From Gemmatimonadota bacterium (GTDB lineage Bacteria; Gemmatimonadota; Gemmatimonadetes; Gemmatimonadales; GWC2-71-9): a stretch of DNA of 64,000 bases. Numbering within the stretch: the stretch's first letter is position 1; each line of letters begins with the position of its first letter. The position numbers and the translations under genes are program-made. This document shows positions 8,553 through 25,688 of this stretch, piece after piece. The notes under the pieces were generated by a model that saw only the letters and a program-made list of their open reading frames with translations, made no database searches and had not been told where the DNA came from. The stretch is from NCBI GenBank assembly GCA_003169895.1, contig PNAE01000007.1, positions 275,603-339,602 of the forward strand, written 5' to 3'.

Positions 8553-10448
8553 ATGTGCGGACTCGCAGGATGCTGGTATCGGGACGGCCAGCCGGCCGAG
8601 ACAGCTATTGCGGCGCGGATGCTCGATCGGCAGCGCCACCGCGGCCCCGATGACCGCGGCACCTGGGCCGACGGCCCGGCGACGCTCGGCCTCGATCGCC
8701 TCAGCATTCTCGACCTGAGCCTCCACGGCCACCAGCCGTTCGTCACGCCCGATGGCAGCAGCGCCCTCGCCTACAACGGCGAGGTCTACAACTGGCAGGA
8801 GCTCAAGCAGGAGCTGGAACAGGAAGGCGTCCAGTTCACCTCGCATTGCGACACCGAGGTGGTACTCCACGCCTTGCACTGTTGGGGACCGGAGACGGCG
8901 ATTCCCCGGTTCAATGGGATGTTCGCCCTGGCATGGTACGATCGCCGGGCGACCACGCTCTGGCTCGCACGGGACCGCACGGGCATCAAGCCACTCTACC
9001 TGGCCGACACCGGCCGAGTGGTGGTGTTCGCGTCCGAGGCCAAGGCGCTCTTCGCACATCCGGCGGTTCCCTGTCGTGCCGATGTCCACGCGCTGGTCAC
9101 CCAGGTGTACCTCGAGCGACTGGTCGGCGACTGGACCGCGTTCGAGGGGGTGCGGAACGTGCTGCCGGGGACGATGATACGCTGCACGCCGGCTGCCACC
9201 ACGACCATCACCTGGTTCGACCTCGAGCGCGACCTCGACATCGGCCGGATTCTCCGGAGCCGCGCCGAGCCGTTCGAGCAGCACGTGACCGAGTTCCGTG
9301 ACCGCCTCGAACGGAGCGTGGAGTTACACCTGCAGAGCGACGCACCGCTCGCGGTGATGTGCAGCGGCGGGCTCGACTCATCCCTTATCACTGCGATCGC
9401 CCGGCGGCACAAGCCCGACCTCGTGGCCTTCGTGGCCGAGGCGGCAGGACTGCGGGAATCGGAAGCCGACAAGGCTCAGCAGGTCGCCGATCATCTTGGC
9501 GTGCGCCTCCGGCGAGTCCAGATCACCAACGAGGAGTTTCCCCGACTCTGGGCCCTGGCCGCCTGGCACAATGATGAGCCGATGTACTTCCACCAGAACC
9601 CGCTGGCACTCAAGGTGAGCGAGGCAGTGCGGGATGAGGGATTCAAGGTCCTGGTGACCGGCGAGGGATCGGACGAGCTCTTCGGCGGCTACGGCTGGCA
9701 GGCCGAGACGGCGAGAATGTGGCGGCTGCGGCAGTGGCACGCGCGGCTGCTCCCCAATCTTCGCCCGCTCCGTGCCATCGGGCGCTGGCTGCAATGGCTG
9801 GCGCCGTTCGACCTCGAACACCTCGCCACTGAACCGTTCGACCGCCGCAGTCAGTGGCACCGCGCTCCGCCAGGCGCCGAGCTCGTGATCGACGGCGGCA
9901 TGCGGCGGCGCCGGGCCCGGTCACTCTTCGCGCAGCTCGAACGGATTCCACGCATCGACGAACGTGCATTTCTCGCCCGGGAGTTCGACGATTTCTATCA
10001 TCACCTGCGCGTCCTCCTCAGGGCAAATGACAAGATGACGATGGCGGCGTCCATCGAGGCACGGGTGCCGTTCATTGAAAACACCCTCATCGATTTCGGG
10101 CTGCACCTCGCGCCGGCATCGAAGTATGGCAACCGCCAGAGCAAGCGGGTGGTGAAAGCCGCCGCCGCGGGATTGCTGCCCCGAAGCATCATCCACGCCG
10201 AAAAGGTCGGGTTCGCGGTGCCGAATGGCTTCATGACGGGCTACGAACCACTGCTCCGTGACGGCATCGTGCCGCAGCTGTTCAAGTGGGGCGAACGCGA
10301 GAGTGACCGGATGCATGAGGTGATGCGCGCCGACCCGATGCTGGGCCGCCACATGGTTAGCATGGAACTGTGGGCCCAGCTGTACCTCAACGGGAGGACC
10401 CCGGAAGAGTTGACCGAGCGGTTGAAAACGGTGCGAAGGAAGCGGTGA
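8553..10448 (+). CDS. asnB: Glutamine-dependent asparagine synthetase-like amidotransferase
   Basis: 631 residues starting MCGLAGCWYR, so Cys2 becomes the N-terminal nucleophile after Met removal. The class II glutaminase domain continues with QRHRGPDDRG and YNGEVYNW. The synthetase half has the PP-loop SGGLDSSLIT near residue 270, TGEGSDELFGGYG, and a late VPFIENTLIDFGL helix. It transfers ammonia from glutamine to an ATP-activated carboxylate. Free-standing paralogues of this type occur in exopolysaccharide clusters (modifying uronic acids or amino acids) and as the cyclases of lasso peptides. The intact Cys2 favours a real amidotransferase. Neighbours are a GT-C enzyme upstream and convergent ATP-grasp and glycosyltransferase genes. 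Confidence 0.93.
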   Translation: MCGLAGCWYRDGQPAETAIAARMLDRQRHRGPDDRGTWADGPATLGLDRLSILDLSLHGHQPFVTPDGSSALAYNGEVYNWQELKQELEQEGVQFTSHCDTEVVLHALHCWGPETAIPRFNGMFALAWYDRRATTLWLARDRTGIKPLYLADTGRVVVFASEAKALFAHPAVPCRADVHALVTQVYLERLVGDWTAFEGVRNVLPGTMIRCTPAATTTITWFDLERDLDIGRILRSRAEPFEQHVTEFRDRLERSVELHLQSDAPLAVMCSGGLDSSLITAIARRHKPDLVAFVAEAAGLRESEADKAQQVADHLGVRLRRVQITNEEFPRLWALAAWHNDEPMYFHQNPLALKVSEAVRDEGFKVLVTGEGSDELFGGYGWQAETARMWRLRQWHARLLPNLRPLRAIGRWLQWLAPFDLEHLATEPFDRRSQWHRAPPGAELVIDGGMRRRRARSLFAQLERIPRIDERAFLAREFDDFYHHLRVLLRANDKMTMAASIEARVPFIENTLIDFGLHLAPASKYGNRQSKRVVKAAAAGLLPRSIIHAEKVGFAVPNGFMTGYEPLLRDGIVPQLFKWGERESDRMHEVMRADPMLGRHMVSMELWAQLYLNGRTPEELTERLKTVRRKR

Positions 10449-11683: not shown

Positions 11684-13543
11684 TCACTGTGCTTCTTCCG
11701 CGACGACGATCCCCGGTTCGGTGCGGCGCCTGTCGATCGCCTTCTTGAACAGGCGAAGCGTATTCAATTCCACGAGCGACTTGCCGCGCGTCATGTTGCC
11801 GTCGTGCCGGCGCACGAAAAGCGTCACCTCGTCGAGGTGGAGAATGTTCAGGCCGTGCTCGACAGCCCGCGTGAACCAATCGGTGTCCTCGCTGAAGCGC
11901 AGCTCCTTATCGAAGAGACCAACCCGCTCGAAGGCTCGACGACGGTACACGCCGGCGCCGATGTAGTACGGAAACGCCTCCGACGGGCTTCCGATGTACT
12001 CGCCGTGTTCCTCGTACGTCGTGAAGCGCGTCACCTGCGCGCGCCCGTGCACGACGTCCAGGCCGGGTTGCTCCGCCAGCAGGTCGACGAGGCTGCCGAG
12101 GGTGCGCTCCGGCCACAGGTCGTCCACGTCGAGGAAGGCGAGAAGCTCTCCGGAGGCGTCGCGAATGCCGCGATTGCGCGCCGACGCCGCGCCGGCGTTC
12201 TCCTGGCGGAAATTGCGCACGTCCACCGGAAGGGCCGCGACGGCGGCGTCCACGTTGTCGGTGGACCCGTCATCCACCACGATGATCTCGATGGCCGGGT
12301 ACTCCTGCGCCAGCACGCTGCGCACCGCGTAGGGGAGAAACCCGGCTCCATTGTAGACCGGAATGATCACGCTGACCAGCGGACGCGCCGGCGCGCCCGG
12401 TGCGGCACCGGGGGATGTGGCAAGTCGGTCGAGCGCCGCCCCATCAAGTCGAAGGATCGACCGGATCGTCTCCGGTAACGTCGTGATGTCGTGCCCGAGC
12501 GCGAGATGCAACCCGGGAAGGCGGCGAAGCATCCGATCGATGAACGCGTGGGTGCGCCCCCCGGCGTGCGGGAGCTGTGAGAGCGTGGTGAACTCTGCCG
12601 CGCGCAGCAACGCGGCGCTCGACGCCGCCGACACGATCGTTCGCGGTCCGTCGCCGAAGGACGGCGTTGCGATGGCCTTGAGTGGGAGCGACCGGCGCAC
12701 CTGCTCGGCGTAGCGCGGCACGAGCTGGATGACCGCCTTGTCGTCCCCGTGCGGGGCTCCGTTCGCGACAAGCTCGCGCAGCTCGGGGAATCGCTCCACC
12801 TGTCCGGCATCGAGCTTGGCCGTGCTGTACAGGCTGTACGCACGCGGCTCCGGCTCGAGGCGAACCACGAGGTAGTCGTCGGCCACGTACTGCATGCCCG
12901 CCGAGAGGCAGGCGAGGGCTGTGGTGGACTTTCCGACGCCTCCTCTGCCGGTGATGAGCAGGGCGCCGTCCGCGGTGCCGACCGCCGCCGCGTGCAGCAG
13001 CTGGGCACCGTTCTCTTCCATCCACCAGTGGAACAGCGTACGGAAAGGAGACGCCTTGGTCCAGTACGGCATCTTCTCGTCGGAGCGCACCCAGAACATT
13101 CCGGTGCGCCGGTCGAGATCGAGCAGGTTGAGCGAGAATTCGACCCAGTGGAAGGCACTGCGCAGTCGCGGACTCGTCATCCCCCAGATGTCGCCGCGGT
13201 CGGTGAAGCACTGGCGCGTGCACGGGGGCGGGATCATCTCGACGCCGGTCGAGACGCTGTCCCAGACGTGAATCGTCACGTCGGGCGTCGTGTCCGGCGG
13301 CTCGATGAGGTGCGCGAGTGCCGCTGTCAGCGAAGCAAGCAGGCGGTCCCCAGCGAAGACGAGTTCCACGCGGGTCCCCGCGACGTCGAAGTGGCGCCGC
13401 ACGGTGCCGGCACGCGCCTCTGCCTGAACACAGTTCGCCATCGCCGCGTCGAAGAACGCGCGCTGTTCCTCCTCGGGGAGCTCCGGCGTATCCGACCGGT
13501 GCGGCTGTGCGGCGGAGTCGGGCGCCTTCCCGCGGTCCGTCAC
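11684..13543 (-). CDS. HPr-kinase-like domain fused to GT2 glycosyltransferase
   Basis: 619 residues from GTG 13543, which overlaps the ABC exporter's stop as GTGA; the frame runs upstream but only inside that gene. Residues about 30-375 resemble HPr-kinase/phosphorylase-like proteins, with a Walker A loop GRGGVGKSTTAL (199-210), then YVADDYLVV and a long helical end. From about residue 389 a complete-looking GT-A domain begins: SVIIPVYNG, IIVVDDGSTDN, and DVDDLWPE as the DXD-type site, followed by FSEDTDWFTRA. Stand-alone HprK-like proteins are known beside PqqD-like and nucleotidyltransferase genes; the fusion to a glycosyltransferase suggests that phosphorylation and glycosyl transfer act on one substrate. 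Domain calls are good; joint function is inference. Confidence 0.85.
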   Translation of the reverse strand: MTDRGKAPDSAAQPHRSDTPELPEEEQRAFFDAAMANCVQAEARAGTVRRHFDVAGTRVELVFAGDRLLASLTAALAHLIEPPDTTPDVTIHVWDSVSTGVEMIPPPCTRQCFTDRGDIWGMTSPRLRSAFHWVEFSLNLLDLDRRTGMFWVRSDEKMPYWTKASPFRTLFHWWMEENGAQLLHAAAVGTADGALLITGRGGVGKSTTALACLSAGMQYVADDYLVVRLEPEPRAYSLYSTAKLDAGQVERFPELRELVANGAPHGDDKAVIQLVPRYAEQVRRSLPLKAIATPSFGDGPRTIVSAASSAALLRAAEFTTLSQLPHAGGRTHAFIDRMLRRLPGLHLALGHDITTLPETIRSILRLDGAALDRLATSPGAAPGAPARPLVSVIIPVYNGAGFLPYAVRSVLAQEYPAIEIIVVDDGSTDNVDAAVAALPVDVRNFRQENAGAASARNRGIRDASGELLAFLDVDDLWPERTLGSLVDLLAEQPGLDVVHGRAQVTRFTTYEEHGEYIGSPSEAFPYYIGAGVYRRRAFERVGLFDKELRFSEDTDWFTRAVEHGLNILHLDEVTLFVRRHDGNMTRGKSLVELNTLRLFKKAIDRRRTEPGIVVAEEAQ

Positions 13544-15255
13544 GGCGCTGGCGCCGCCGCGCGCGCGTGACGATCCTCGGGCACCAGCTGCCCGCCATGC
13601 AGACGGTAGACCTCGTTCGCGTAGTCCACGACCTTCGGGTCGTGGCTCACCACTACCAGCGTGGGGCGGTCGGGCCATTCGACGAGGCGCCGCATGAGGC
13701 GCTCGATCGCTGAAACGTCGAGGTGATTGGTCGGCTCGTCGAGGATGAGGATACGTGGCCGGCCAAGGAGGGCGCGGGCGATCGCGAGGCGCTGTCCCTC
13801 GCCACCCGAGAGCAGGGCGCCACCCTCACCGATCTCCGTCTCGTAGCCCTTCGGGAGCGTCGCCACGACTTCGTCGGCGAGGGCGACGTGGGCCGCTGCC
13901 GCGACTTCCTCGAGGGTCGCCTCCGGCGATCCGTATGCGATGTTCTCGAAGACCGTCCCCGCGAAGAACGCGGGGTGCTGCGGCACGACTCCGATGGCGC
14001 GCCTCACCAGCCGCATGGCGACCTCGTCGTACGGCACGCCGCTCGCGAGGAGCTGACCCTTCCCCGGACGGTAGAAGCCGAGGAGCAGGTGCATCAGCGT
14101 GCTCTTCCCCGCACCATTGGGGCCGACGAGCGCGACGTTCGCCCCGGTCCGGAGCAGGAGGTTCACGCCGCGGAGCACGGGCTCCTCGCCGTAGCCGAAC
14201 CAGACGTCGCGAAACTCGATCGTCCCATCGAAGTCGATCGACTGCTGTCCCTGATACGGCTCCGGCGCCCCCTCGGTGACCAGCCGGTGCAGCGTGACGA
14301 GGGACTCGTTGCCGGCGAGCAGGTCGGGGATGCCGGTCATGAGCGTGTCGACGAAACCGTTCAGCATTCCCGCCGCGACGTAGAAGGCGACGAACGAGCC
14401 AAGGGTCATGGTGCCGCGCGCGATGGCCGCACCGCCGACGATGAGAATGAGGATTCCCGTGATGCCCATCAGCGTGCGCTGCACCTGACCGTGTACCGCG
14501 TAGCTCATCGCCATGCGGTGCCCGGTGGTGCGCAGGTCGCCGATGTGGCGCTGCTGACGCTCCATCTCCTCAGCCTCGAACGCCTTCATGCGCGTGAGGT
14601 CGATCTGCCGGACGGCGAAGTGCACCCCGCGGCTGAAGCCCTCGAACGCACGCTGGAAGGTGAAGACCTGGCGCTTCACGAACCAGCCGGAGAACCGTGC
14701 GGAGATCCAGAGTAGCGGCAGGACGGCACCGCCGAGCAGCAGCAGCCGCCAGTTGAGCGCGAGCAGCACGATCAGCAGTACGACCGCCGAAAACGCGGCG
14801 GGGAGCATGCCGGAGAAGAGCGTGTTGCTCAGATTGTCCACGCGCTCGCTGTCCTGCACGATGCGTGTCTGCAGCACGGAGAGGTCGGCGTGTCCGAAGT
14901 ATTCGCGCGACAAGCCGTAGACGCGCGCGATGAGGTCGCGGCGCAGATCCGCCACGGCACCCTTGATCGTGTGCAGCACGTGTGAGCGCAGCCCGAGGGC
15001 GACGACGCTGCCGAGGGCGCGCAGGAGGATGATCGCAGCACCGATGCGGACGAGGGCGCCGACATTGCGGTGGGGAATGGCACTGTCGAACGCCTGCCGA
15101 ATGAGCGCGAGCACCGGAAGCACGAGTGCCGACTGCACCGAGGCACCCAGAGTGGAGACGACGAGGCGCCGCAGGCGCGGACGGTAATACCCCGCTAAGA
15201 ACCGGAGGGCAGGCCCGTCGAGGAGGTGGCGCGAGGGCGCGGGAGCGGCGGTCAG
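13540..15255 (-). CDS. ABC exporter, fused membrane and ATPase domains
   Basis: 571 residues if started at CTG 15255. No ATG, GTG or TTG occurs in frame near the expected N-terminus. CTG forms a CTGA overlap with the upstream stop, AGGA lies six bases ahead, and every other junction in this operon is a 4-bp GTGA overlap. Six helices come first (FLAGYYRPRLRRLVVSTLG to SFVAFYVAAGMLNG). The ATPase follows, with Walker A GPNGAGKST, a Q-loop, signature LSGGEGQRLA and Walker B ILILDEPT. Length and layout are those of type IV half-exporters for lipids, glycans or peptides. There is no N-terminal C39 peptidase domain, so leader cleavage would need another protein. Confidence 0.9.
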   Translation of the reverse strand: MTAAPAPSRHLLDGPALRFLAGYYRPRLRRLVVSTLGASVQSALVLPVLALIRQAFDSAIPHRNVGALVRIGAAIILLRALGSVVALGLRSHVLHTIKGAVADLRRDLIARVYGLSREYFGHADLSVLQTRIVQDSERVDNLSNTLFSGMLPAAFSAVVLLIVLLALNWRLLLLGGAVLPLLWISARFSGWFVKRQVFTFQRAFEGFSRGVHFAVRQIDLTRMKAFEAEEMERQQRHIGDLRTTGHRMAMSYAVHGQVQRTLMGITGILILIVGGAAIARGTMTLGSFVAFYVAAGMLNGFVDTLMTGIPDLLAGNESLVTLHRLVTEGAPEPYQGQQSIDFDGTIEFRDVWFGYGEEPVLRGVNLLLRTGANVALVGPNGAGKSTLMHLLLGFYRPGKGQLLASGVPYDEVAMRLVRRAIGVVPQHPAFFAGTVFENIAYGSPEATLEEVAAAAHVALADEVVATLPKGYETEIGEGGALLSGGEGQRLAIARALLGRPRILILDEPTNHLDVSAIERLMRRLVEWPDRPTLVVVSHDPKVVDYANEVYRLHGGQLVPEDRHARAAAPAP

Positions 15256-16433
15256 GTGCTGTCCTGGGCGGCGCCGACGCGCGGCGGGCGGTGGGCGATC
15301 CGGCGCCCCACGCCGCGGACGATAAGCGGCAGGATCTCCCGGCGCCCGCCGAGTTTCATGCGGAATCGCAGGTAGTGCGAGAAGCCGCTGATGAAGGCGA
15401 GCGGGCCGCGGGTGTCGGCATAGCGGCAGTATTCGACGAACGACACCCACTGCGTGGCTAGCACCGAACGCCGAAGCCGGTAGTTGTCGGCCAGCAGCAC
15501 GGTCCGTTCGACCCGCTCCACGAGCGAGACGCGCCGGGCACGCAAGCGCGCCAGAATCTCCCGGGGGACCGGCGCCGAGAAGGTGCTCGCGAGATATGCC
15601 AGCCCCAGGCCGAGCCGGTGCGTCAGCCGGTGCGCCGCGGCGACGGCAACCATGCGCTCCCAGTCGACGTCGGCGCCACGCCGACGCAGAATGGTGAGCG
15701 CGTCCGGAATCCAGCGGATCGGGGTCTCGTCGTTCCAGCGCATCCCGTGCACGACCACGAGGAGCAGGAGGCCGGTCGGGTCGAGTTGGCGCACCGGGGA
15801 GCCGAGGAAGTCGAGGGGTTCGGCGGTGGCGCGGAAGGTCCGGTCGGCGTCGTCGGACGCTGCCTCGTAAAGGACGTGCCAGTGCAGGTCGATCTCCGCA
15901 CCGCCTGGGCCGATGCACTGCACGGCGTGTCGGAAGCGGAAAACGTCCGCGTCGGGTGCATCGATGGCGCACCAGCCGATGGTCCCCAGGATTTCCAGCG
16001 CCCGGCCGGCATCGGCGGGGGCCACCATTATGTCCACATCGGCCATCGGGCGCAGCGCATGGTTGCGGTAGTAGGTGAGGGCGAGCGGCGCCCCCTTAAC
16101 CAGCAGCACCTCCACGCCGCCCGCCACGAGCGCCGCGACCACCGGCTGCACCCGGTGGAACAGCCGGTGCGTGTCGTACCAGGCGCGCCGGTAGACGCCC
16201 TTGAGCCGCCCCATGAGCGGGTCGCTGAGCCCCTGGCGCTGCATGTTCTCGTACACCAGCGGAAGCAGGCGCACGGTCTGGTAGCTGAAGTCGGCGTCCA
16301 GATCCACTCCGGCGCACCACGCCCGGAAGGCGGCGACGGACGGCGCGCCGTCGCGCAGCGCGGCCTCGAGCAGGAGGTGCTGTTCCGCGGACGGCCAGAG
16401 GTGCGCGGCGGTCCCGTCGTTGTCAGCCATCAC
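15252..16433 (-). CDS. Nucleotidyltransferase-family protein (PF14907-like)
   Basis: About 393 residues. The N-terminal region is helical (HLLLEAALRD, YQTVRLLPLVYENMQRQ). The nucleotidyltransferase signature follows as LLVKGAPLALTYY then LRPMADVDIMV, where the two Asp residues form the metal site, and later EIDLHWHVLYEA supplies the third acidic residue. Family members occur beside asparagine-synthetase-like, PqqD-like and HprK-like genes, but the target is unknown. Start is GTG 16433 (GTGA overlap with the upstream GT2 stop) or ATG 16430. Downstream, its stop overlaps the exporter's start. Position within the operon suggests that it modifies or activates the same substrate. Confidence 0.85.
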   Translation of the reverse strand: MMADNDGTAAHLWPSAEQHLLLEAALRDGAPSVAAFRAWCAGVDLDADFSYQTVRLLPLVYENMQRQGLSDPLMGRLKGVYRRAWYDTHRLFHRVQPVVAALVAGGVEVLLVKGAPLALTYYRNHALRPMADVDIMVAPADAGRALEILGTIGWCAIDAPDADVFRFRHAVQCIGPGGAEIDLHWHVLYEAASDDADRTFRATAEPLDFLGSPVRQLDPTGLLLLVVVHGMRWNDETPIRWIPDALTILRRRGADVDWERMVAVAAAHRLTHRLGLGLAYLASTFSAPVPREILARLRARRVSLVERVERTVLLADNYRLRRSVLATQWVSFVEYCRYADTRGPLAFISGFSHYLRFRMKLGGRREILPLIVRGVGRRIAHRPPRVGAAQDST

Positions 16434-17152
16434 GGCGTTCCGGCGGGACGGGAGCCGTCTCGCGCCGCGGCCGCCGCGCGCTGGCGGTCGAGCGATCCTT
16501 TGAGCGCCCGCAGGTAGTCGGCGCGCAGGTGCCGGTTTCGCGCGCCGGTGTTGGCGCCGTGGATGCGGCGCCGCAAGACCACCTGCTCCACGGTGCGCGT
16601 TACCACGCCGGCCGCGTCGGCCCGGGCGACCCAGTCGATCGTCTCGCCAACCCGGAGTGACTCGTCGAAGTCACCGACACGTGCCACGGCGGTCCGGCGG
16701 ATCAGCATCGCCCCGGCCACTCGGCCGCGGCTCACGCCCGGCGGACACGTGAGGGTCCGCCGCACCTCGTCAGGCAGTTCCGGACTGATGAACTGCTCGA
16801 CGAGGCCGGTGGCACACTCCGCTGCGACGTCGCCGGCCAGCGACTCGAGCCGGCACGAAAGGCTGTCGGGCGTCCACACGTCGTCCGCATCGAGGAAAGC
16901 GATCAGCGCGCCGCGGGCCAGTGCGAGCCCCGCATTGCGCGTCGCGCTGATGCCGCGATGGGGCTGGCGATGGCATCGCACCAGCGGCCCGAATTGCTCC
17001 GCGATCGCCGCGCTTCCATCGGTCGAGCCATCATCGATGACGAGGACTTCGATTGGACGGGGCCATTGTGCACAGGCACTCTCCAGCGCCTCGCCAAGGT
17101 AGTGCTCCATGTCGTAACACGGTACGATCACGCTGACGTCGGCTGACGTCAC
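16430..17152 (-). CDS. GT2-family glycosyltransferase
   Basis: 240 residues, a bare GT-A catalytic domain: SVIVPCYDMEHYLGEAL, VIDDGSTDGSA, the acceptor-side ISATRNAGLALARG, and FLDADDVW as the DXD-type metal motif. A basic C-terminal region contains many Arg residues. It should transfer a sugar from a nucleotide sugar on the cytoplasmic side. GTG start at 17152 shares GTGA with the stop of the next upstream glycosyltransferase. Sister enzyme to the product of 17149-17850; both are shorter than typical processive GT2 proteins and lack membrane helices, so they likely build short chains. Confidence 0.9.
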   Translation of the reverse strand: MTSADVSVIVPCYDMEHYLGEALESACAQWPRPIEVLVIDDGSTDGSAAIAEQFGPLVRCHRQPHRGISATRNAGLALARGALIAFLDADDVWTPDSLSCRLESLAGDVAAECATGLVEQFISPELPDEVRRTLTCPPGVSRGRVAGAMLIRRTAVARVGDFDESLRVGETIDWVARADAAGVVTRTVEQVVLRRRIHGANTGARNRHLRADYLRALKGSLDRQRAAAAARDGSRPAGTP

Positions 17153-17850
17153 GGGTCGCTCGCGGCAGCGCGCTTCCGCTCGATCGATCGCCGCATCGCA
17201 CGCAGCAGCAGAGCGTTGATCTGCGGATGGGAGAGCGACGCATTGGTGTCGTGCACACGCTTGATGACCAGCGTCTCGGGGAGGACGGCCATCGGCACGC
17301 GTGCGTCTCGCGCCCGGGCGAACCAGTCGGTGTCCTCACCGACGGCGAAGCTGGGATCGAATCGGCCGACGCGGGCAAAGACCTCGCGGCGCGCCAATAG
17401 CGACTCCATGATGAAGCCGGGGACCGGATGGTCGAGCAGTTCGGTGCGGAACCCCGCGGGCGGGCTCGCTCCATCGTGCAGCACGTGCTGCACGTGCGTC
17501 ACGGTATACTGCACCTGCGGGTGAGCGCTCATGTATGTGACCTGCCGCTCGAGCTTCTCCGGCAACCAGCGGTCGTCGTGCGAGATGAACGTCACGAGCC
17601 CGCAGCGCGCGGTGGCGATTCCCTGGTTGTAAGCGTTCGCGATGCCTTGCGCGTCCTGGCGGACGAGAGTCACCCCCTCGAACGTCCGCACGATCTCCGC
17701 CGTTCGATCCGACGAGTGGCCGTCGATGACGAGGATCTCGGCGGGACGCAGCGTCCCGCTGACGACGCTCGTGAGCGCGTCGGCGATGAAGCGCTCCCCA
17801 TTACGCACGATGAGGATGACGCTGACGTTCGGGGACGCGGGGGTGGTCAC
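17149..17850 (-). CDS. GT2-family glycosyltransferase
   Basis: 233 residues from GTG 17850 (GTGA overlap with the PqqD-like stop). Motifs: SVILIVRNGERFIADAL, LVIDGHSSDRTAEI, IANAYNQGIATARCG, ISHDDRW at the metal site (HDD instead of the more common DAD), and GEDTDWFARARD near the end, which is shared with the GT2 part of the HprK fusion. Cytoplasmic; donor and acceptor unknown. A longer upstream frame (to 18183) exists but lies inside the PqqD-like gene. It is the second gene of the operon transcribed from the sigma-54-like site at 18341. Confidence 0.9.
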   Translation of the reverse strand: MTTPASPNVSVILIVRNGERFIADALTSVVSGTLRPAEILVIDGHSSDRTAEIVRTFEGVTLVRQDAQGIANAYNQGIATARCGLVTFISHDDRWLPEKLERQVTYMSAHPQVQYTVTHVQHVLHDGASPPAGFRTELLDHPVPGFIMESLLARREVFARVGRFDPSFAVGEDTDWFARARDARVPMAVLPETLVIKRVHDTNASLSHPQINALLLRAMRRSIERKRAAASDP

Positions 17851-18332
17851 AACGCGCTCGCCTCCGGTTCCTTCGGCTTCGGCCACCCGGCCTCGTCGAC
17901 GTCGTGGATGGGATCCAGCATGAGCAGGTCTTCCATGTCCGAGTAGGCATTCAGAACGGGCGCCACGAACACCGTACGCGCGTGCCCATTGGGCAACGAC
18001 GGCCGCACCGGCGCCGGAGCTGTGCCCTCGTGGCGTGCGTCCTCCACAATCAGGCGTCGCTCCAGCAGCTCGGCTACGAAGGCGTCCACGGCGTGCTCCA
18101 GTTCCGTCCGGTCGCATTCGTAGCGCCCGGCCAGCGTCCCGGCTATGCCCGAGCGCCCGAGCCCCGCCTCGACGCCGCTCCATATCTCCGCCCCGCTGCC
18201 CTGCGTGCTGAAGTAGTGCCCCGACGCGAGGTCGATGATGACCGCCTCACCGTCGATGATTTCGCCGACGACCGCCGGCGCGTTGATTCTGAGAGTGGGT
18301 TCCACTGCCACCGTCCTGATTGGAGGGTCCAT
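17847..18332 (-). CDS. PqqD-like protein with leader-like C-terminal tail
   Basis: 161 residues from ATG 18332. Residues about 13-97 form a PqqD/RRE-type fold: APAVVGEIIDGEAVIID, a GHYFSTQGSGAEIW turn, then helices to LLERRLIVED. PqqD-like domains bind leader peptides for modifying enzymes. Beyond residue 98 a 64-residue tail carries VFVAPVLNAYSDMEDLLMLD (121-140), PIHDVDEAGWP and a Pro/Glu-rich end. The spacing of aromatic, Pro and Leu residues resembles lasso-peptide leaders. The predicted sigma-54 start falls at the ATG, so GTG codons at 18311 or 18305, preceded by AGGA, may be the true start. First gene of the seven-gene operon. Domain assignment is sound; the leader reading is inference. 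Confidence 0.82.
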   Translation of the reverse strand: MDPPIRTVAVEPTLRINAPAVVGEIIDGEAVIIDLASGHYFSTQGSGAEIWSGVEAGLGRSGIAGTLAGRYECDRTELEHAVDAFVAELLERRLIVEDARHEGTAPAPVRPSLPNGHARTVFVAPVLNAYSDMEDLLMLDPIHDVDEAGWPKPKEPEASAL

Positions 18333-18357
18333 CCGCGAAAAGCAACATCCATGCCAT
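18300..18357 (-). repeat. 58-bp promoter/start repeat, copy 1
   Basis: About four in five bases match the copy at 20022-20080. The match runs from the -24 element through the first codons: an identical ATGGCATGGATGTTGCTTTT, then CAGGA-N-GGTGGCAGTGGA. It precedes the PqqD-like gene. Confidence 0.8.
18341..18356 (-). promoter_or_regulatory. Sigma-54 (-24/-12) type promoter of the PqqD-like operon
   Basis: On the minus strand the site reads TGGCATGGATGTTGCT: GG and GC are ten bases apart as required, and only one base of TGGCACG-N4-TTGCW differs. The expected start of transcription is about 18330, at the annotated ATG, implying a leaderless message or a GTG start slightly downstream. No enhancer-binding activator gene is in the window. 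Confidence 0.7.
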
Positions 18358-19433
18358 CATGCCCCTGCTTCACGGCCTGGATCACTCTCCGGTCGAGCGT
18401 GACTCAGCTTGGTGATGGTATCAAGATGACCGCGCTCCGCCAAGATTTGGTGAGGAAACAGCCGCGGCCATTCGTCGGCGAAGCGTTTCTTGATCTCGTG
18501 CTGGTCGTAGATCTCTTGAACCAACGTAACGAAAGCCTCGCGATGGACTCTGAGCTTCGCGAGCACCGCGTCGCGAGGAATGTCGGGCCGCACCCCCCGA
18601 CCGATGAGCTCTCGCACCGCCTCCTCGATCGCCCGGGGTTCCGGTGGCACGGTCAGGACGAAGCTCTCTTCAAAGAACAAATCCCGACCGCCCCGGCTGG
18701 GCGTGGTCACGATCGGGAGTCCGCTCAGCAGATATTCGGCACTGGCGAACATCGGACCCTCCTCCTCCGAAAGACACAAGCCGACCCGGCAGGCGTTCAG
18801 GCAATCGTTGATCTCCCGAAGACTGAGCAGTCGATATTCGCCCGAATCCGAGTGATTGAAGAAGTGGGCGCGAGAGAATTCGCGGCGAGTTTCCCGGATG
18901 TATTCGGGACCTTCCTTCGTGGGATTGTAGATCAGGGCCAGACTGGCGATTTCCCGGGCCAGGAAGTGTCGCTTCTGTTTGTCGAGTCGTGCGTTATATA
19001 CTGCGTCGAACCGCTTCGTGACGGAGGGCAATGGCCGAAATATTGATTCGTTAACGAAGCAATTGTGGTTGCAGAGTATTGCACGTCCTCCCCGAGCTCG
19101 GAACAGTTCCGCCTGACCAGGCTCATTGCAAAGGTGAATCAACTCGACATCCGGGAATTGCTGCCTCGTGCGGCTTTCCAACTCCAGAATCCAGTCAAAC
19201 ACGCGAGACGTGAGAGCCCAACTGTGGCGAAACAGGCAGTAGGCCTTCCGCCCACGAAGTGCGGAGAACAGCATCTGATAGCTGGGCAGAAACTCGTCGA
19301 CCATATCCAGAATTGGCTGCACATGAAAAATCGGGGGATCCACCGAGATGATCGAGTAACGGGCAAAGTGGGTTCGATGGAGCCGGGCAAACCCCTCGAG
19401 CACGCCACGTCGCACCGAGTCGCGATCCGTCAT
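18357..19433 (-). CDS. GT4-like glycosyltransferase
   Basis: 358 residues from ATG 19433, whose ATGA overlaps the hydroxylase-like gene's stop. The C-terminal half has the retaining GT-B signature: CRVGLCLSEEEGPMFASAEY, with the E-x7-E pair, then LLSGLPIVTTPSRGG. The N-terminal half is Rossmann-like (YSIISVDPPIFHVQPILDM; GGRAILCNHNCFVNES). It should use a nucleotide sugar in the cytoplasm. Its stop codon ends directly against the sigma-54-like promoter of the next operon, so there is no room for a separate terminator. Longer upstream frames cross the hydroxylase gene and are shadows. Confidence 0.87.
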   Translation of the reverse strand: MTDRDSVRRGVLEGFARLHRTHFARYSIISVDPPIFHVQPILDMVDEFLPSYQMLFSALRGRKAYCLFRHSWALTSRVFDWILELESRTRQQFPDVELIHLCNEPGQAELFRARGGRAILCNHNCFVNESIFRPLPSVTKRFDAVYNARLDKQKRHFLAREIASLALIYNPTKEGPEYIRETRREFSRAHFFNHSDSGEYRLLSLREINDCLNACRVGLCLSEEEGPMFASAEYLLSGLPIVTTPSRGGRDLFFEESFVLTVPPEPRAIEEAVRELIGRGVRPDIPRDAVLAKLRVHREAFVTLVQEIYDQHEIKKRFADEWPRLFPHQILAERGHLDTITKLSHARPESDPGREAGA

Positions 19434-19966
19434 GCTTCCCGCGCTGCGCGGTCGGGCGCTCGTTGCCGGATCGAAGGTGACGCGGCGTATTGTTCCTGCG
19501 TCTGTCGAAAGGGATACACCATCCGCACCAGTGGCCTGAGCAAGAGCGACGTGACGCCGGCCACCTTTTCGTGGGGAAATGCCTCGTCCTCGATGCCCGT
19601 CTCGGGATATTCGTCGTAGCCACGGTACTGCGTGCCGAACAGGCGATCCCGGATGCTGAACAAGGCACCGAAGTTGGTATCCCGGTGCCGTCGTTCGACG
19701 GAATGATGGATTCGATGAAACTGCGGCGTGACAAGAACATAACGCAGCGGCCCGAGATTCGTGCGAATGTTGCCGTGATGGAACCGCGTGTACCACTTTG
19801 CGATGATGGAGAACCAGACGATCTGGGGCGGATCCACCTGCAGCATCAGAAATGGAATCACGAGCAACGTGTGCCCGAACGGATGCGCGACCTTGGCGAG
19901 CCAGTATGTGACCGCGAGTGCGACCACAGCAATCAGTGCTCCGATGATGAATCTGCGTCGGTTCAT
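19430..19966 (-). CDS. Fatty-acid hydroxylase/sterol-desaturase family protein, N-terminally short
   Basis: 178 residues. A membrane region (FIIGALIAVVALAVTYWLA and HTLLVIPFLML) precedes two His clusters, WYTRFHHGNI and TPQFHRIHHSVE, plus the family's DRLFGTQYRGYDEYPE ending. Full members have about 260-300 residues and an earlier His-x3-His and HRxxH box on preceding helices; that half is absent here. With half the di-iron ligands missing, activity is doubtful unless a partner supplies them. The ATG at 19966 overlaps the stop of a 30-codon ORF and its own stop overlaps the GT4 start, so the reading frame is maintained in an operon rather than obviously decaying. Confidence 0.75.
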   Translation of the reverse strand: MNRRRFIIGALIAVVALAVTYWLAKVAHPFGHTLLVIPFLMLQVDPPQIVWFSIIAKWYTRFHHGNIRTNLGPLRYVLVTPQFHRIHHSVERRHRDTNFGALFSIRDRLFGTQYRGYDEYPETGIEDEAFPHEKVAGVTSLLLRPLVRMVYPFRQTQEQYAASPSIRQRAPDRAAREA

Positions 19967-20055
19967 GGGTGACCCTCAACGATCTCGGTGAGGACGCCCG
20001 CCGCATAGCCTCCGGGCTTGAGCTCCACTGCCACCTTCCTGCTCGGCGGGACCAT
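19963..20055 (-). CDS. Short leader ORF resembling the start of the PqqD-like gene
   Basis: 30 codons from ATG 20055 (or 23 from an internal GTG), ending with an ATGA overlap on the hydroxylase-like gene. The first residues, M-x-PP-x-R-x-VAVE, line up with those of the PqqD-like protein at 18332, and AGVLTEIVEG is loosely like its GEIIDGEAV segment. It sits at the same position relative to a sigma-54-like promoter. Either a remnant of a second PqqD-like gene after a deletion, or a coupling peptide that brings ribosomes to the hydroxylase gene. Confidence 0.45.
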   Translation of the reverse strand: MVPPSRKVAVELKPGGYAAGVLTEIVEGHP

Positions 20056-20080
20056 CCGGCAAAAGCAACATCCATGCCAT
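20022..20080 (-). repeat. 58-bp promoter/start repeat, copy 2
   Basis: Second copy of the repeat at 18300-18357, here ahead of the leader ORF and hydroxylase-like gene. It keeps the -24/-12 element and the CAGGA-N-GGTGGCAGTGGA block. Confidence 0.8.
20064..20079 (-). promoter_or_regulatory. Sigma-54 (-24/-12) type promoter of the hydroxylase-GT4 unit
   Basis: Identical 16-base core to the site at 18341-18356, again with its predicted transcription start on the first ATG. Two identical cores 1.7 kb apart, each ahead of a co-directional operon, make chance unlikely. Confidence 0.7.
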
Positions 20081-20265
20081 GGGGAGCGCTACGGAACTTC
20101 CCGAAGTTGTGTCACGCCGCGGCGCTCCCAGCTCATCCTCCCGGTGGTTCGATTGCCTCCCTGATACGGAGTATCATTCGAAGTCCGCACACAACGTCTG
20201 CCGCCTGAATAGTGAATCACGCTGGCGCACGCCAGTGCATATCCCCGTGCGCCGATGGAGCATCC

Positions 20266-21102
20266 ATGGACAAGAAGTTCATCCTGAATTTCACGCCGAC
20301 GGGAATGATCCCCACCAAGGCCATGACGCCGAAGGTGCCGATCCTCCCGGCCGAGATCGTCGTGCAGGTGGGTGAAGCGGTGAAGCTGGGTGCGAACATG
20401 GTGCATCTGCACGCGCGTGACCTGCAGGATGGCAAGCCGACCTACCGGAAGGAGGTCTACGCCGAAATCGTCACCGGAGTCCGGGCGCGACACCCCGAGC
20501 TGGTCATTTGTCTCTCGACAAGTGGCCGCGACTTTCCGGGGTTCAAGGAACGCTCCGAGTGTCTCGACCTCACGGGGGACCTGAAGCCCGACATGGGGAG
20601 CCTGACGTTGAGTTCGCTCAACTTCAATACCCAGGCGAGCATGAATGCGCCTGACATGATCAAGTCACTCGCGAAGAAGATGCAGGACAACGGGATCAAG
20701 CCGGAGCTCGAGGTCTTCGACCTGGGGATGATCAACTACGCGCACTACCTGATCACCAAGGGGTTGATCACGCCACCGTACTATTTCAACCTGATCCTGG
20801 GGAACATCGCTTGCGCCCAGGCCAACCTGCTGAGCCTCGGACTGATGATCAAGGAGTTGCCGCCGGAGTCGATCTGGTCGGTGGGCGGCATCGGCGACCA
20901 TCAGCTGAAGATGAATGCCATCGGGATCGTGGACGGCGGCGGCGTACGCGTCGGTCTCGAGGACAACATCTACTTCGACGCGGACCGGGCCCAGCTGGCA
21001 TCCAACAGTGACCTCGTGAAGCGGATCGTCGATATCGCCACGGCAGTGGGGCGCACGCCCTGGTCCCACCGGGAGGCAAGGGCGTTGCTGGGGATGGCTT
21101 AG
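20266..21102 (+). CDS. BKACE-family beta-keto acid cleavage enzyme (DUF849)
   Basis: 278 residues from ATG 20266, with GGAG about eight bases upstream; the frame to 20212 is open but unsupported. The family hallmark MVHLHARDLQDGKPT (zinc-binding His pair at residues 47 and 49) and the early FTPTGMIPTKAM are present, as are GNMACAQ-like GNIACAQANLL and DGGGVRVGLEDNIY near the end. BKACE enzymes condense a beta-keto acid with acetyl-CoA, giving acetoacetate and a CoA ester, as in 3-keto-5-aminohexanoate cleavage in lysine fermentation. No other lysine-fermentation gene is nearby. The GNAT gene starts one base after its stop, so a role in making an acyl or amino group for the glycan island is possible. 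Confidence 0.88.
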   Translation: MDKKFILNFTPTGMIPTKAMTPKVPILPAEIVVQVGEAVKLGANMVHLHARDLQDGKPTYRKEVYAEIVTGVRARHPELVICLSTSGRDFPGFKERSECLDLTGDLKPDMGSLTLSSLNFNTQASMNAPDMIKSLAKKMQDNGIKPELEVFDLGMINYAHYLITKGLITPPYYFNLILGNIACAQANLLSLGLMIKELPPESIWSVGGIGDHQLKMNAIGIVDGGGVRVGLEDNIYFDADRAQLASNSDLVKRIVDIATAVGRTPWSHREARALLGMA

Positions 21103-21103
21103 C

Positions 21104-21751
21104 GTGAGCGCCTCACGGAGCCTCGCTACCCGGGTGCGTCAGGCATGGGGCAGAGTTCGGAACCAGAGCCTGCGCGTAACGCTGCGCTATTATCTCCGGC
21201 GGATGGAGATTCGCGTCATTCCATTCTACTACGTGAAGGAGCTCCTGCCGCGTGACATCCCGAGGGATCTCACCGCCTTGCCCGAGGGATTCGACTTCGA
21301 GGTGTTTGGCGAAAGGGAGATCGCGATCATCACCGGCTTTCCCGAACAGGACGCGCCTTTCATCGGCGCACACCTGCGCGAGAGCCTCAAGCATGGTCAC
21401 ACCTGCCTGGGCGTCAAGCGCCAGGGCGAGATCGTCGCCTTCACCTGGTTCGCCCTCGACGCGACCCACAGCAAGCTTCATCCGGTTGCGATGCAGCCGA
21501 ACGAGGCCTACCTGTATAACATGTATGTCTTGCCGGAAGTCCGAGGTCACAACCTCGCGCCGATCCTGCGATTCAAGAGCTACGAGATCCTGCGGACGAT
21601 GGGCCGTGACACCTTTTACAGCATCACCCTGACTTCCAACCAGGCGTCGTGGCGGTTCAAGCAGAAACTCAACGCGCAGCGCGTATTCCTCGGGTTGTAC
21701 GTTGACTTCCTCGGAAGGTTCGATGGCCGCTGGATCCTGCGGAGATTCTGA
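21104..21751 (+). CDS. GNAT-type acyltransferase
   Basis: 215 residues from GTG 21104, one base after the BKACE stop. An N-terminal basic helix (RQAWGRVRNQSLRVTLRYYLRRM) leads to a GNAT-like core: HTCLGVKRQGEIVAFTWF as the beta3-4 hairpin, YLYNMYVLPEVRGHNLAPIL as the beta4 and acetyl-CoA binding loop, then TLTSNQASWRFKQKLN. This layout is close to acyltransferases found in polysaccharide and lipid clusters. It probably acylates an amino or hydroxyl group using an acyl-CoA; coupling to BKACE, which makes acyl-CoA, is an attractive inference. Confidence 0.8.
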   Translation: MSASRSLATRVRQAWGRVRNQSLRVTLRYYLRRMEIRVIPFYYVKELLPRDIPRDLTALPEGFDFEVFGEREIAIITGFPEQDAPFIGAHLRESLKHGHTCLGVKRQGEIVAFTWFALDATHSKLHPVAMQPNEAYLYNMYVLPEVRGHNLAPILRFKSYEILRTMGRDTFYSITLTSNQASWRFKQKLNAQRVFLGLYVDFLGRFDGRWILRRF

Positions 21752-21871
21752 GGCAGCGCTCAGCGACCCGTTCCGGATGCAGGAGTAAGCGCTTTTCCCT
21801 TGCGTTCTGCGCATTCCCGCCGAGTATTCGCGAATGCTCGCAGCGCCGGTTGTTTGCCCTGAGATCGCGGG

Positions 21872-23026
21872 TTGACTTACCCTCCCGTATCACCGCTGGT
21901 GCTGCGCCAGAAGTGGCGCTCCCTCGGCGATCTCCTGGCAGGAATCCGCGAAGTGCACCGAGCGGAGCGGGTCGGGGTGATTCGCGCACTGCGCGAATAC
22001 CTGCGGATCCGTCGGGCGATCCGTGCCACGCCACGCGAGTACTTCCGTTACCGCCTATGGGACACTGCGGCGCCGCTCGCCGATCGGCTGAGCTTCATCA
22101 CCTGGGCCGATCGCCGTCCGCTCGAGGCATATCTCAACCCGAATGCCGACGCAGTGCGGGTGCGGTCCAAGATTCAGGGCGACGACCTCTTCCGTCAGCA
22201 CGGCTTGCCGATCCCGGCTCGGCTCGGTGTCTGGTGCCCCGAGGGTACTCACTCCGATGCCGCGGATGCGATCCGAACGCGTGATCAGCTGATGTCGCTG
22301 CTCAATCGCACATCAGGGGGAGTGGTCTTCAAGCGCGATTTCGGTGGCAGCGGCGAGTTCGTGCTGGTGTTCACTGCGGCTGACATGAACGGACTCCGGC
22401 ACGCCTCGGGGGCGCACTGGTCGATCGACCGTTTGCTTGAAAGCACCTCCGCTGTAGAGCCATGGCTGGTGCAGTCGCGGGTGACGGCACATCCCGAACT
22501 CGCAGCACTCGCCGGCTGCGATTATGCCGCCACGCTACGGCTGGTGACCTGCCGACGGTCGAGCGGCAGAGTGTTCCTGCTGCCGGCCACCCTCAAGTTG
22601 CCCTCTACGGCATCGGGGTGCGACAATTTCGGTGCTGGCAACGTGGCCGTCGCCGTAAGCTATGACGGCGTCCTGGGTCGGGGTGCCCTCGGGCTCGATG
22701 GTCCGCCGATCGACCGTCATCCCGTTACCGGTGCACTGTTTGAGGGAGTGACCGTGCCACATTGGGCGGCGGCGGTTGAAATCGTTCGTCGCGGCCAAGC
22801 CCTGGTCCCCACGCTGCGATCACTGGGCTGGGACGTCGCGATCACCCCCGGCGGATCGGTGATTCTTGAGACGAATGCGTGGTGGGGAGTGGACGTGATC
22901 CAGCAACCGGGATTGCGCGGACTGGTGCGTGGCGAATTCATCGAGTTTATCGAGGAGCTCGGCGCGGCGCATATTATCCGCCGGGGGCGAAGAGTGAAGC
23001 CGCATGGTTCCGCGCGGACAGGTTGA
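21872..23026 (+). CDS. Sugar-transfer-associated ATP-grasp protein (second of three)
   Basis: 384 residues from TTG 21872; GTG or ATG alternatives inside would remove conserved helices. Shared features with the protein at 10513: RATPREYFRYRLW, VVFKRDFGGSGEFVLVF (nucleotide lysine and glycine loop), LKLPSTASGCDNFGAGN and the ending SLGWDVAITPGGSVILETNA. The final 53 bases overlap tail-to-tail with the opposing paralogue at 22974. It probably ligates an amino acid or acid onto a nucleotide- or lipid-linked sugar, but no substrate is known. It follows the GNAT gene after a 120-bp gap that holds no other gene. Confidence 0.86.
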   Translation: MTYPPVSPLVLRQKWRSLGDLLAGIREVHRAERVGVIRALREYLRIRRAIRATPREYFRYRLWDTAAPLADRLSFITWADRRPLEAYLNPNADAVRVRSKIQGDDLFRQHGLPIPARLGVWCPEGTHSDAADAIRTRDQLMSLLNRTSGGVVFKRDFGGSGEFVLVFTAADMNGLRHASGAHWSIDRLLESTSAVEPWLVQSRVTAHPELAALAGCDYAATLRLVTCRRSSGRVFLLPATLKLPSTASGCDNFGAGNVAVAVSYDGVLGRGALGLDGPPIDRHPVTGALFEGVTVPHWAAAVEIVRRGQALVPTLRSLGWDVAITPGGSVILETNAWWGVDVIQQPGLRGLVRGEFIEFIEELGAAHIIRRGRRVKPHGSARTG

Positions 23027-24110
23027 CGACGTCGCCGTAACCGCGCTCCTCGAGAAACTCCCGGAATTCCCCCTGCACGAGCCCCTGTCGCCACGGCGCC
23101 TGAATGGTGCGCTCCCCCCAGCACGGATTCACTTCGATCACCACCGGGCCCGTGTCCGTGATGGCCACGTCGTATGCGAGCGAGGCGAGTTCCGGAAAGC
23201 AGTCTGCGATCCGGTGCGCCATGACGCGGGCCGCGGGCCAGTGCGGGATCACAGTTCCCGTGATCGCTGTACCCGTGAGGGGGTGGCGATCGACTCGCTC
23301 GAGGCCGAACCAGCGTCGCGCCGGCCCGATCCTGCCCTCGACGGGATCAACCGGCGCGGCGAGCTGGCCCACACCGTGGGAAAAGTGATCGACCCCGGAG
23401 AGACCGATCGGGATTTTCCAGACCGATGGCGCCATGTGCACGGTGCCGTCGAGCATGCGAAATGTCGTCAGGCGCAGCGTGCCGAGCGTCTCGCCGGCGA
23501 TGCGGGCGAGTTGCGGATGCTGCGGGATTCGCTGCTCCACCTTCCAGAGCCCCTCCGTGGCTAGCACGGCCCGGAACCGATTCACCGTCCAGCGGGTGCC
23601 GTCGAGCGCCTCGAGTCCGTTGGGAGTCGCCCGCCGAAAGACGTATACCGAACGCCCGGATCCTCCGTCGTCCGGCTTGATGACGATGCCGTCAGCTGGG
23701 GCATCGGCGAGGAGCAGGCGCACTCCGTCATCGCCGTGTCGGAATATGAACCGATCGGTGCTCGGTGCGATGCCGTTCCGGAGGGTAAGGAGGCAAAGGA
23801 CCCGGCCGACGGAGATGCCGGCGTCTTCGAGCACCGCGGTGGTCCAGGCCTTGTTGCGGATCCGCAAGTTGGGCTCGCGCGGGTTCATCCGGTATTCAAT
23901 CGCGCGGCGCTCGATGTTGCTCATCATCGTCATCCGCTCGGCGAGTGGGCGGGTCGTGTCCCAGAGTCCGTAGCCCATGAACTCGGCGCGGTCCATGCCT
24001 ATGGCATCGCGGAATCGTCGGAATTCGCGCCGTTGAATGCGCAGCGGAATACCGTGGTTCCACCGGATAATGGCGGCACTGGAGAGAAGGCGTCTGAGGC
24101 CCCGAATCAT
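22974..24110 (-). CDS. Sugar-transfer-associated ATP-grasp protein (third of three)
   Basis: 378 residues from ATG 24110 (an upstream ATG at 24173 would add 21 basic residues). Motifs match its paralogues: GMDRAEFMGYGLW, IVIKPDDGGSGRSVYVF, IPIGLSGVDHFSHGVGQ, and SLAYDVAITDTGPVVIEVN with W after it. It converges with and overlaps the second ATP-grasp gene, so the pair may be an inverted duplication that has since diverged strongly. Such tail overlap means that transcription of one opposes the other. Confidence 0.86.
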   Translation of the reverse strand: MIRGLRRLLSSAAIIRWNHGIPLRIQRREFRRFRDAIGMDRAEFMGYGLWDTTRPLAERMTMMSNIERRAIEYRMNPREPNLRIRNKAWTTAVLEDAGISVGRVLCLLTLRNGIAPSTDRFIFRHGDDGVRLLLADAPADGIVIKPDDGGSGRSVYVFRRATPNGLEALDGTRWTVNRFRAVLATEGLWKVEQRIPQHPQLARIAGETLGTLRLTTFRMLDGTVHMAPSVWKIPIGLSGVDHFSHGVGQLAAPVDPVEGRIGPARRWFGLERVDRHPLTGTAITGTVIPHWPAARVMAHRIADCFPELASLAYDVAITDTGPVVIEVNPCWGERTIQAPWRQGLVQGEFREFLEERGYGDVVNLSARNHAASLFAPGG

Positions 24111-24235
24111 CCGGGAGTATGTACCTCGTGCCCACCGCTGCCGCAAGCGTCCGCGGCAGACTGTTAGTGGCAAGAGCGTTCGCGGAATTCGCCGTCAAGT
24201 CAGCACGATTCAGTCATTCATCAACGAAAGACGGA

Positions 24236-24754
24236 CTATCCTCCAGAGCTGGGGGATGATACCGGCGCGGCCACCCGCGCCCACGCCTCGTCCGCAGCAA
24301 GCGCGGGTGAGCTGGTCGTTGTTGACGCGTTTGCCAGACGCTCCAGGAATGCTCTGAGTTGCATGCCCGAACGGCCGACTACGTGGTCAAGTCCAGCCTC
24401 GCGCAAAATGCGCGTGCCCCAACGCGAATGCCAATCAGACGATCGCTTGACAATTACCGCGTCGTCGACCTCATCGAATTGATCTGCCGTGATGTCCACG
24501 ATGAAACCATCCACCTGAAGCCAAGCGTGGATTTCGATGCCATCGTCGGTAACCCGCTTACCGAATACATATTCCAAAGACCGACCGGGACTCCCGGCCA
24601 ATCGTGTTGCGAGCATGTCGACGGCATCGCCACAACTGCCCCGAGGGAAGTGCCGGAGCGAGATCGGTCTTGCCTCCGGTGGTACCGATATGATCTGGGT
24701 TCGGAGCGATTCCGCGACACTCCGAATGGTTTGCTCTTGGTCGGATTGCGTCAA
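24236..24754 (-). CDS. Small Cys/His protein with a papain/transglutaminase-like pattern
   Basis: 172 residues. A conserved-looking PRGSCGDAVDMLATRL (Cys in a helix start) is followed about 40 residues later by IEIHAWLQVDGFIVDITADQF, giving a Cys-His-Asp order as in transglutaminase-like and papain-like hydrolases. No assigned family. The last 25 residues (Ala/Ser/Pro-rich) are encoded across a GTCCGCAGCAAGCGCG string that also occurs in an attC-like site at 27839-27931, so the C-terminus may have been altered by cassette junctions. Start ATG 24754. Possible peptidase; evidence is motif spacing only. Confidence 0.6.
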   Translation of the reverse strand: MTQSDQEQTIRSVAESLRTQIISVPPEARPISLRHFPRGSCGDAVDMLATRLAGSPGRSLEYVFGKRVTDDGIEIHAWLQVDGFIVDITADQFDEVDDAVIVKRSSDWHSRWGTRILREAGLDHVVGRSGMQLRAFLERLANASTTTSSPALAADEAWARVAAPVSSPSSGG

Positions 24755-24986
24755 TGTTGCCTCCGGCGGTCCAGCTGACGATTCTGCGCCTCTGCTGCGA
24801 CGCGTGCGGGGTGACCGCGCAACCTTGTTACATCAATGATACCTGCGCAGCTACCCCGCACACCTCGGCAGACCTCGCGTTGCCTTGATCGGCATCCGAT
24901 GGGCTTGGTGCCAACGCGCGTTTAGAGTTCCGGGCATCGCCTTCCTCGGTCTCGAGTTTTCAGCGCGGATTCGGCGGCGGTGTCGC

Positions 24987-25688
24987 TCATGGGACCTTGG
25001 CAGCCCGCCCACGGCGGGCGCCCGCGACGGAATCGACCAGCCGCCGGGCCCGCGTAGTCAATTCGTCCCAACGGCCGTTTCGCACCAGCACTGGATCCAG
25101 CAACGCGGCAGCCATGCTGACCGCCGCCGCTCCGGCATCAATCCATTCCGCGGCGTTCTCCAGCGTCATGCCGCCGGACGGCACCAGTCGCAGGAACGGC
25201 AATGGCGCCAGGATGTTGCGAAAGAATTCCGGACCTACCGAACACGCCGGGTAGACCTTCACTAGCGAGGCGCCCAGACGCCAGGCTCGCAGGATTTCGG
25301 ACGGCGAGAGCGCGCCTGGAATACAGACCACCTCGTGCTCCACGCAATAGCGGATCACGTCGGGTTCGAGTGTCGGACTCACCACGAAGCGTGCCCCGGC
25401 GTCGATCACCTCGCGCGCGGCTGCTTCGTCGAGCACGGTACCCGCACCGATCAGGCATCCCGGGATGTCGGCGGCAACCAGCTCCCGGACCGCGTCGATC
25501 GCGCCGGGCGTGGTTAGCGTGACCTCGAACGCGCCGATGCCGCCCGCAACCACCGCTTCCGCGGCGCGACGGAGCGATCCGGCTTCGTTTCGCCGCACCA
25601 CGGCAATGACGCCGCTCTTGAGCAGGTGAGCGAGGTCGGGAGAGATCGCGGCAGCATCCCGGGATATCATAGTGGATGCAGTGGTCAT
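24987..25688 (-). CDS. eda: KDPG/KHG aldolase
   Basis: 233 residues from ATG 25688, with AGGAG at the proper distance. A TIM barrel with the catalytic Glu in AFEVTLTTPGA, IGAGTVLDEAAAREVIDAG, FVVSPTLEPDVI, the Schiff-base Lys in ASLVKVYPA and the phosphate-binding LVPSGGMTLENAAEW. It splits 2-keto-3-deoxy-6-phosphogluconate into pyruvate and glyceraldehyde-3-P (Entner-Doudoroff) or the related ketohydroxyglutarate. No edd or kinase gene is adjacent; the neighbouring aldehyde dehydrogenase, 90 bp upstream, may handle another sugar-acid route. Confidence 0.92.
   Translation of the reverse strand: MTTASTMISRDAAAISPDLAHLLKSGVIAVVRRNEAGSLRRAAEAVVAGGIGAFEVTLTTPGAIDAVRELVAADIPGCLIGAGTVLDEAAAREVIDAGARFVVSPTLEPDVIRYCVEHEVVCIPGALSPSEILRAWRLGASLVKVYPACSVGPEFFRNILAPLPFLRLVPSGGMTLENAAEWIDAGAAAVSMAAALLDPVLVRNGRWDELTTRARRLVDSVAGARRGRAAKVP

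Follow-up and report, generated by a model that had tools for sequence, protein, structure and literature searches.

RREs serve as markers for finding RiPP clusters, and each is taken to await a separate precursor. In the crystal structure of PbaB1 with PbaA, the W-x2-P-x-L motif lies in a cleft and the RRE sheet is extended by the three residues that follow the motif, the pocket residues being Y39, I48, L65, Y69, E75, F83, L87, and L92 (PMC13381572). RRE-presented peptides are phosphorylated by the HprK-like proteins PsmK and LppK (PMC9266682, PMC13381572), and PsmN adds one or more hexoses to phospho-Ser (PMC9266682). In addition, for linear polyphosphorylated peptides (LPP) it has been suggested that modifying enzymes may bind the leader past its contact with the RRE (PMC13381572).

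Here, we describe a PqqD-family RRE followed by a leader-like tail of its own, encoded in a 64,000-nucleotide stretch of a Gemmatimonadota contig (hereafter, the window). This appears to be a self-loading form, not described before, of a known peptide-tailoring system, and it is present in many phyla; no description of the tail was found in open-access papers. The explanation that we favor, with a probability of roughly 0.57, is a self-loaded RRE, in which a cis-docked leader presents a conserved peptide to the enzymes of the operon, to the exporter, or to both.

Architecture, distribution and conservation of the tail

The protein is 161 aa long and is encoded on the minus strand (17847..18332, with an ATG start at 18332 and a TGA stop at 17849-17847) by a gene that is single-copy in the source genome. 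The PqqD-like domain proposed in a preliminary description was confirmed by Pfam (PF05402; residues 29-95, E=3.6e-12). From N- to C-terminus, the protein consists of the RRE domain (residues 15-98; 18039..18290), a flexible and variable linker of low information, 14-26 aa long among homologues (residues 99-121 here; 17970..18038), and a tail with the consensus F-x2-P-x-L-x2-Y-[ST]-DM-x-DLL-x-LDPIH-x-V-D-x2-GWP. The tail comprises a leader-like FxxPxLxxY segment (residues 122-130; 17943..17969) and an exposed conserved segment, SDMEDLLMLDPIHDVDEAGWP (residues 131-151; 17880..17942), all on the minus strand. The DPIH stretch may resemble the Asp-Pro sites at which other proteins are processed, but this line of thought was set aside. 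At 19972..20080 on the same strand, just upstream of a GT1-like gene, lies the remnant of a duplicated RRE gene: a decayed stretch of 109 nt with 75% identity to the pqqD 5' end, which reads MVPPSRKVAVELKPGGYAAGVLTEIVEGHP followed by a stop.

A tail-only scan of a bacterial and archaeal genome collection with the pattern D[ML][QEA]DLL[LM]LD (residues 132-140) returned 241 matches. Of these, 106 were relatives by tblastn, and 80 of the relatives, ranked by tail similarity, were kept. The tail is therefore present in no fewer than 106 public loci, which represent about ten phyla, labeled in the records as Gemmatimonadota, Bacteroidota, Ignavibacteriota, Chloroflexota, Acidobacteriota, Cyanobacteriota, Nitrospirota, Desulfobacterota-type groups, Pseudomonadota, and Verrucomicrobiota; no viral relatives were found. 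Of the 80 inspected loci, 77 have a recognizable RRE together with the tail, and the tail-bearing frames encode PqqD-like proteins. Locus L044 has no readable in-frame RRE and is possibly frameshifted, and in L086 a masked stretch precedes the tail.

The preliminary description had raised the question of whether the motif also occurs without an RRE or in short ORFs, and no such case was found among the loci and genomes searched. Stand-alone tail peptides were absent from the 80 inspected loci, from a tail-profile search of 45 tail-bearing genomes, in which all significant matches lay in frames of 142-384 aa, and from 395 genomes searched with a profile in the same phylum as the window. In this last search, 15 of the 395 genomes matched, two of them marginally and with unrelated proteins, and the same architecture was recovered with more variation. 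It includes a short-tail class, [Y]xxPxLxx[YF]xDMx[DAG]LLALDPPxP, found in G166, G375, and G410 and as two extra copies in G233. Here the DPIHxVDxxGWP half is replaced, which leaves FxxPxL plus DMxxLLxLDP as the constant core. The short-tail loci (L195, L196, L197, L198, and L158) mostly retain NTP5 with GT2 and/or HprK, and form a supported clade of their own.

The same preliminary description had read residues 121-140 and the following PIHDVDEAGWP as a segment with the spacing of lasso leaders. The letters are exact (V121-D140 is VFVAPVLNAYSDMEDLLMLD), and the F122-x2-P125-x-L127 spacing is that of the [Y/W]xxPx[L/V] leader motif. It is conserved among 76 aligned homologues: position 122 is F, Y, or W in 75, position 125 is P in 75, and position 127 is L, V, M, F, or I in nearly all. 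Further along, H143 and G149 occur in all 76 and W150 in 75. Mean information over the 76 proteins is 1.84 bits for the RRE, 0.54 bits for the linker (residues 96-121), 2.45 bits for residues 122-131, and 3.52 bits for residues 141-151; the invariance of the nine columns 132-140, which served as the search pattern, is partly by construction and is no independent evidence, and the ranking of the 80-locus sample by tail similarity inflates the values of the remaining tail columns. Over the exposed segment as a whole (131-151), the mean reaches 3.5-3.7 bits, with near-invariant D, DLL, LDP, H, and GWP. Conservation is higher in the tail than in the RRE itself and far higher than in the linker, the latter comparison having been proposed as a check; it is the linker that varies freely, and not the tails. 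The leader spacing of the tail is not due to chance.

In a tree of the RRE domain, which rests on 86 columns and thus on little data, 98/99 support separates the tail and short-tail proteins from the tail-less RREs of the lasso type, with the exception of one long-branch row. This topology is compatible with a single origin of the RRE-tail fusion. As regards the window itself, about 15.7 kb (12124-27981) are 99.9% identical to L011, a contig of MAG palsa_1244 (apparently G425), which is assigned to another family of the same order. The same-genus genomes searched do not carry the tail gene, and the near-identity reflects either mis-binning or a very recent transfer.

Predicted docking of the tail on its own RRE

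The nearest solved relatives of the RRE are TbiB1 (5v1u/5v1v; 1.3e-17), PbaB1 (9x90; 1.3e-13), and LppB (9x8z; 3e-6), together with TfuB1 (6jx3), and Foldseek agrees (TbiB1 5v1v, E=1.1e-6). By alignment, the counterparts of the PbaB1 pocket residues are, in the same order, F41, I50, L67, Y71, E77, F85, L89, and L94. The domain is thus an RRE of the lasso/LPP type with its leader groove kept.

In an AlphaFold2 (AF2) run of the window protein with the 76-row alignment, pLDDT was 94-98 for the RRE, about 65 in the middle of the linker, 97 for residues 121-130, and 57-67 for residues 131-161, with a strand at 128-130 and a short helix at 133-137. The strand covers the three residues right after the motif Leu, in the same register as in PbaA-PbaB1 (PMC13381572). 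Similarly, in the homologue of Niabella drilacis (29% identical), pLDDT was 96 for residues 101-110, with a strand at 105-109, and then fell to 62-65. In both proteins the FxxPxL segment was placed on its own RRE with high confidence, a placement in which AF2 may recall known RRE-leader complexes. Docking of this segment in its own groove, in cis, is therefore predicted. Two roles had been suggested for the tail in the preliminary description, self-docking and modification substrate; these models, proposed there as a check, favor the first.

It could be argued that the tail is a structural C-terminal cap or a dimer-swap element, unrelated to peptide tailoring. The RRE fold is small, some PqqD proteins dimerize, and a single-chain AF2 model is also compatible with docking on a neighboring molecule. 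However, the exact leader spacing, the lasso-type groove, and the RiPP-type gene set described below link the RRE-tail protein to peptide tailoring, and they make this explanation very improbable.

A docked tail could also act as an autoinhibitory lid, filling the groove until it is displaced by the better leader of a separate precursor. This idea draws on the resemblance of the tail to a lasso leader and on its predicted position in the groove of both homologues, but the precursor that it calls for did not appear: among small ORFs of the tail loci (22-110 aa, with a leader motif), none was conserved or recurring, and only antisense or repeat-like matches were obtained. Leader motifs were not enriched in these ORFs (125, against a mean of 105.7 and a range of 81-126 in shuffles). 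Moreover, a lid would have no need for the invariant DPIHxVDxxGWP half, and we consider it improbable.

Operon context and possible role of the exposed segment

In the window, pqqD is the first gene of an operon on the minus strand, followed by GT2, GT2, NTP_transf_5, an ABC exporter, and an HprK-like kinase fused to GT2, with junctions that are mostly overlapping stop and start codons. The GTG start of the first GT2 glycosyltransferase (17149..17850; PF00535) overlaps the pqqD stop (GTGA), the second (16430..17152; PF00535) also has a GTGA overlap, and the NTP_transf_5 gene (15252..16433; PF14907, E=3.9e-38) has an overlapping start, GTGATG. The ABC exporter (13540..15300, exact start uncertain; PF00664 and PF00005) is MsbA-like according to NCBIfam. 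It shares a GTGA overlap with the gene of the kinase-GT2 fusion (11684..13543), in which the P-loop GRGGVGKS and a DDY motif are found (HprK_rel_B, 1.5e-9).

These partners recur. The 80 tail loci contain GT2 in 72 cases, HprK in 67, NTP5 in 66, and ABC in 47; for the 33 loci of at least 17 kb, the counts are 31, 30, 29, and 24, respectively. Across the 67 loci, the kinase keeps the P-loop, the conserved His, and DDY, in agreement with the His-Lys-Asp-Asp set of lasso kinases (PMC9266682). All 80 tail loci were negative for B2 peptidase and for Asn synthase. By comparison, 35 tail-less NTP5 loci from the same phylum contain Asn synthase in 22 cases, B2 in 15, and GT2 in four, and their RREs mostly end no more than 20 residues past the domain. 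The window does contain an Asn-synthase ORF with a full glutaminase domain (8517-10448, plus strand), which lies outside the operon and on the opposite strand. A free precursor, a cyclase, and B2 are absent from the tail clusters.

According to the self-loaded RRE model, the domain would bind the FxxPxL motif at its own C-terminus, instead of the leader of a separate precursor as in lasso and LPP systems. Docking would then bring DMxDLLxLDPIHxVDxxGWP to the groove's open end, the site from which RREs ordinarily pass a core on to tailoring enzymes, and the docked tail would act there as a fixed element for presentation, recruiting the HprK-like kinase, NTP_transf_5, the GT2s, and/or the ABC exporter. 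We infer that the exposed half contacts these enzymes and the exporter, or is their acceptor. By analogy with PsmK/PsmN and LppK, the product of the pathway would be phosphorylated or glycosylated, and exported.

The tail might instead be the substrate itself, in an RRE-precursor fusion whose exposed half or linker is phosphorylated and glycosylated by the kinase and by NTP_transf_5/GT2; an exported glycan or modified peptide would then be carried or primed by this ribosomally made protein. Such a role has precedents in the activities of PsmK, LppK, and PsmN on RRE-presented peptides or phospho-Ser (PMC9266682, PMC13381572), no other leader-bearing or substrate-like peptide was found in the clusters, and the kinase motifs are preserved over 67 loci. 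However, the tail has no invariant Ser/Thr. T/S131, the best candidate, was rejected as an obligatory phospho-acceptor, since it is replaced in eight of the 76 homologues, whose loci retain the kinase. The putative core is also near-identical over many phyla, unlike the cores of natural products, the B2 protease was not found in tail loci, and some loci have neither kinase nor GT2. We regard the substrate role suggested in the preliminary description as possible but doubtful.

Four loci from Chloroflexota (L077, L080, L083, and L088), which share Ala at position 134, carry the tail and an ABC exporter without HprK or GT2. Nearby genes are NRPS-like, with AMP-binding/PP-binding domains (L077, L083), or encode a sulfotransferase (L080) or a methyltransferase (L088). 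The link of kinase and GT2 to the tail is consequently not universal.

A protein-primed assembly line, in which the RRE-tail protein binds its leader in cis and lends its conserved tail as a carrier of ribosomal origin, on which the kinase, NTP_transf_5, and the GT2s build a (phospho)glycan for the MsbA-like exporter to ship out, seems unlikely to us. If it were true, it would define a leader-in-cis RiPP-like class over about ten phyla. As for the self-loaded RRE, a large and widespread family of RREs with built-in leaders would, if confirmed, explain missing precursors in such clusters and point to a widespread kinase/glycosyltransferase/exporter pathway. In addition, it would offer a ready-made fused RRE-leader for structural and engineering work.

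Comparison with known systems

LPP clusters resemble the tail system in their discrete lasso-type RRE, HprK-like kinase, NTP transferase, and MsbA-like exporter, in their glycosyltransferase-rich loci without cyclase, and in the recognition motif [Y/F]xxPx[L/V] (PMC13381572). All four components of the set (RRE, HprK, NTP transferase, and MsbA-like exporter) are present in the window and in most tail loci. However, LPP clusters have separate precursors (YxxPxVLxHQxIxFETxxS) with variable cores and an SpI-type signal peptidase, and occur mostly in Bacillota (PMC13381572), whereas in the tail system motif and RRE form one protein, the sequence that follows the motif is nearly invariant, and about ten phyla are represented. 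No small ORF of the LPP precursor type recurs in the tail loci, and among their ORF families no recurring peptidase was recognized. One locus from Gemmatimonadota rather than Bacillota (L134:2100-5433) resembles an LPP cluster in having an RRE, a Peptidase_S24/signal-peptidase-like protein, HprK, and NTP5; the leader-like tail at the end of this RRE is a different one (PVPWETPLAERFGELEQLILSGE).

With lasso clusters of the paeninodin/pseudomycoidin type, the tail system shares the lasso-type RRE (TbiB1, PbaB1), the HprK-like kinase, a nucleotidyltransferase homologue, and the ABC exporter, but it has several GT2s in place of the lasso cyclase, the B2 peptidase, and the separate precursor. Membership in a lasso cluster is ruled out: cyclase and B2 are each found in 0 of 80 loci (B2 in 15 of 35 tail-less NTP5 loci), and there is no separate precursor. 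The PqqD of PQQ biosynthesis was likewise rejected, with no TIGR03859 match to the window protein and no Pqq enzymes among the Pfam matches of the neighboring ORFs scanned. The HPr-rel-A system (TIGR04352/TIGR04353) also pairs a PqqD-like protein with an HprK-related kinase, but the window RRE scores 16.8 bits against the TIGR04353 cut-off of 35, with a match limited to residues 27-95.

In borosins, the substrate is fused to the modifying enzyme. They share with the tail system the principle of recognition or catalysis in cis, but the fusion partner of the tail is a recognition domain instead of an enzyme. The system is best filed as an RRE with its leader in cis, a variant of the RRE-kinase-NTP-exporter core of LPP and paeninodin clusters.
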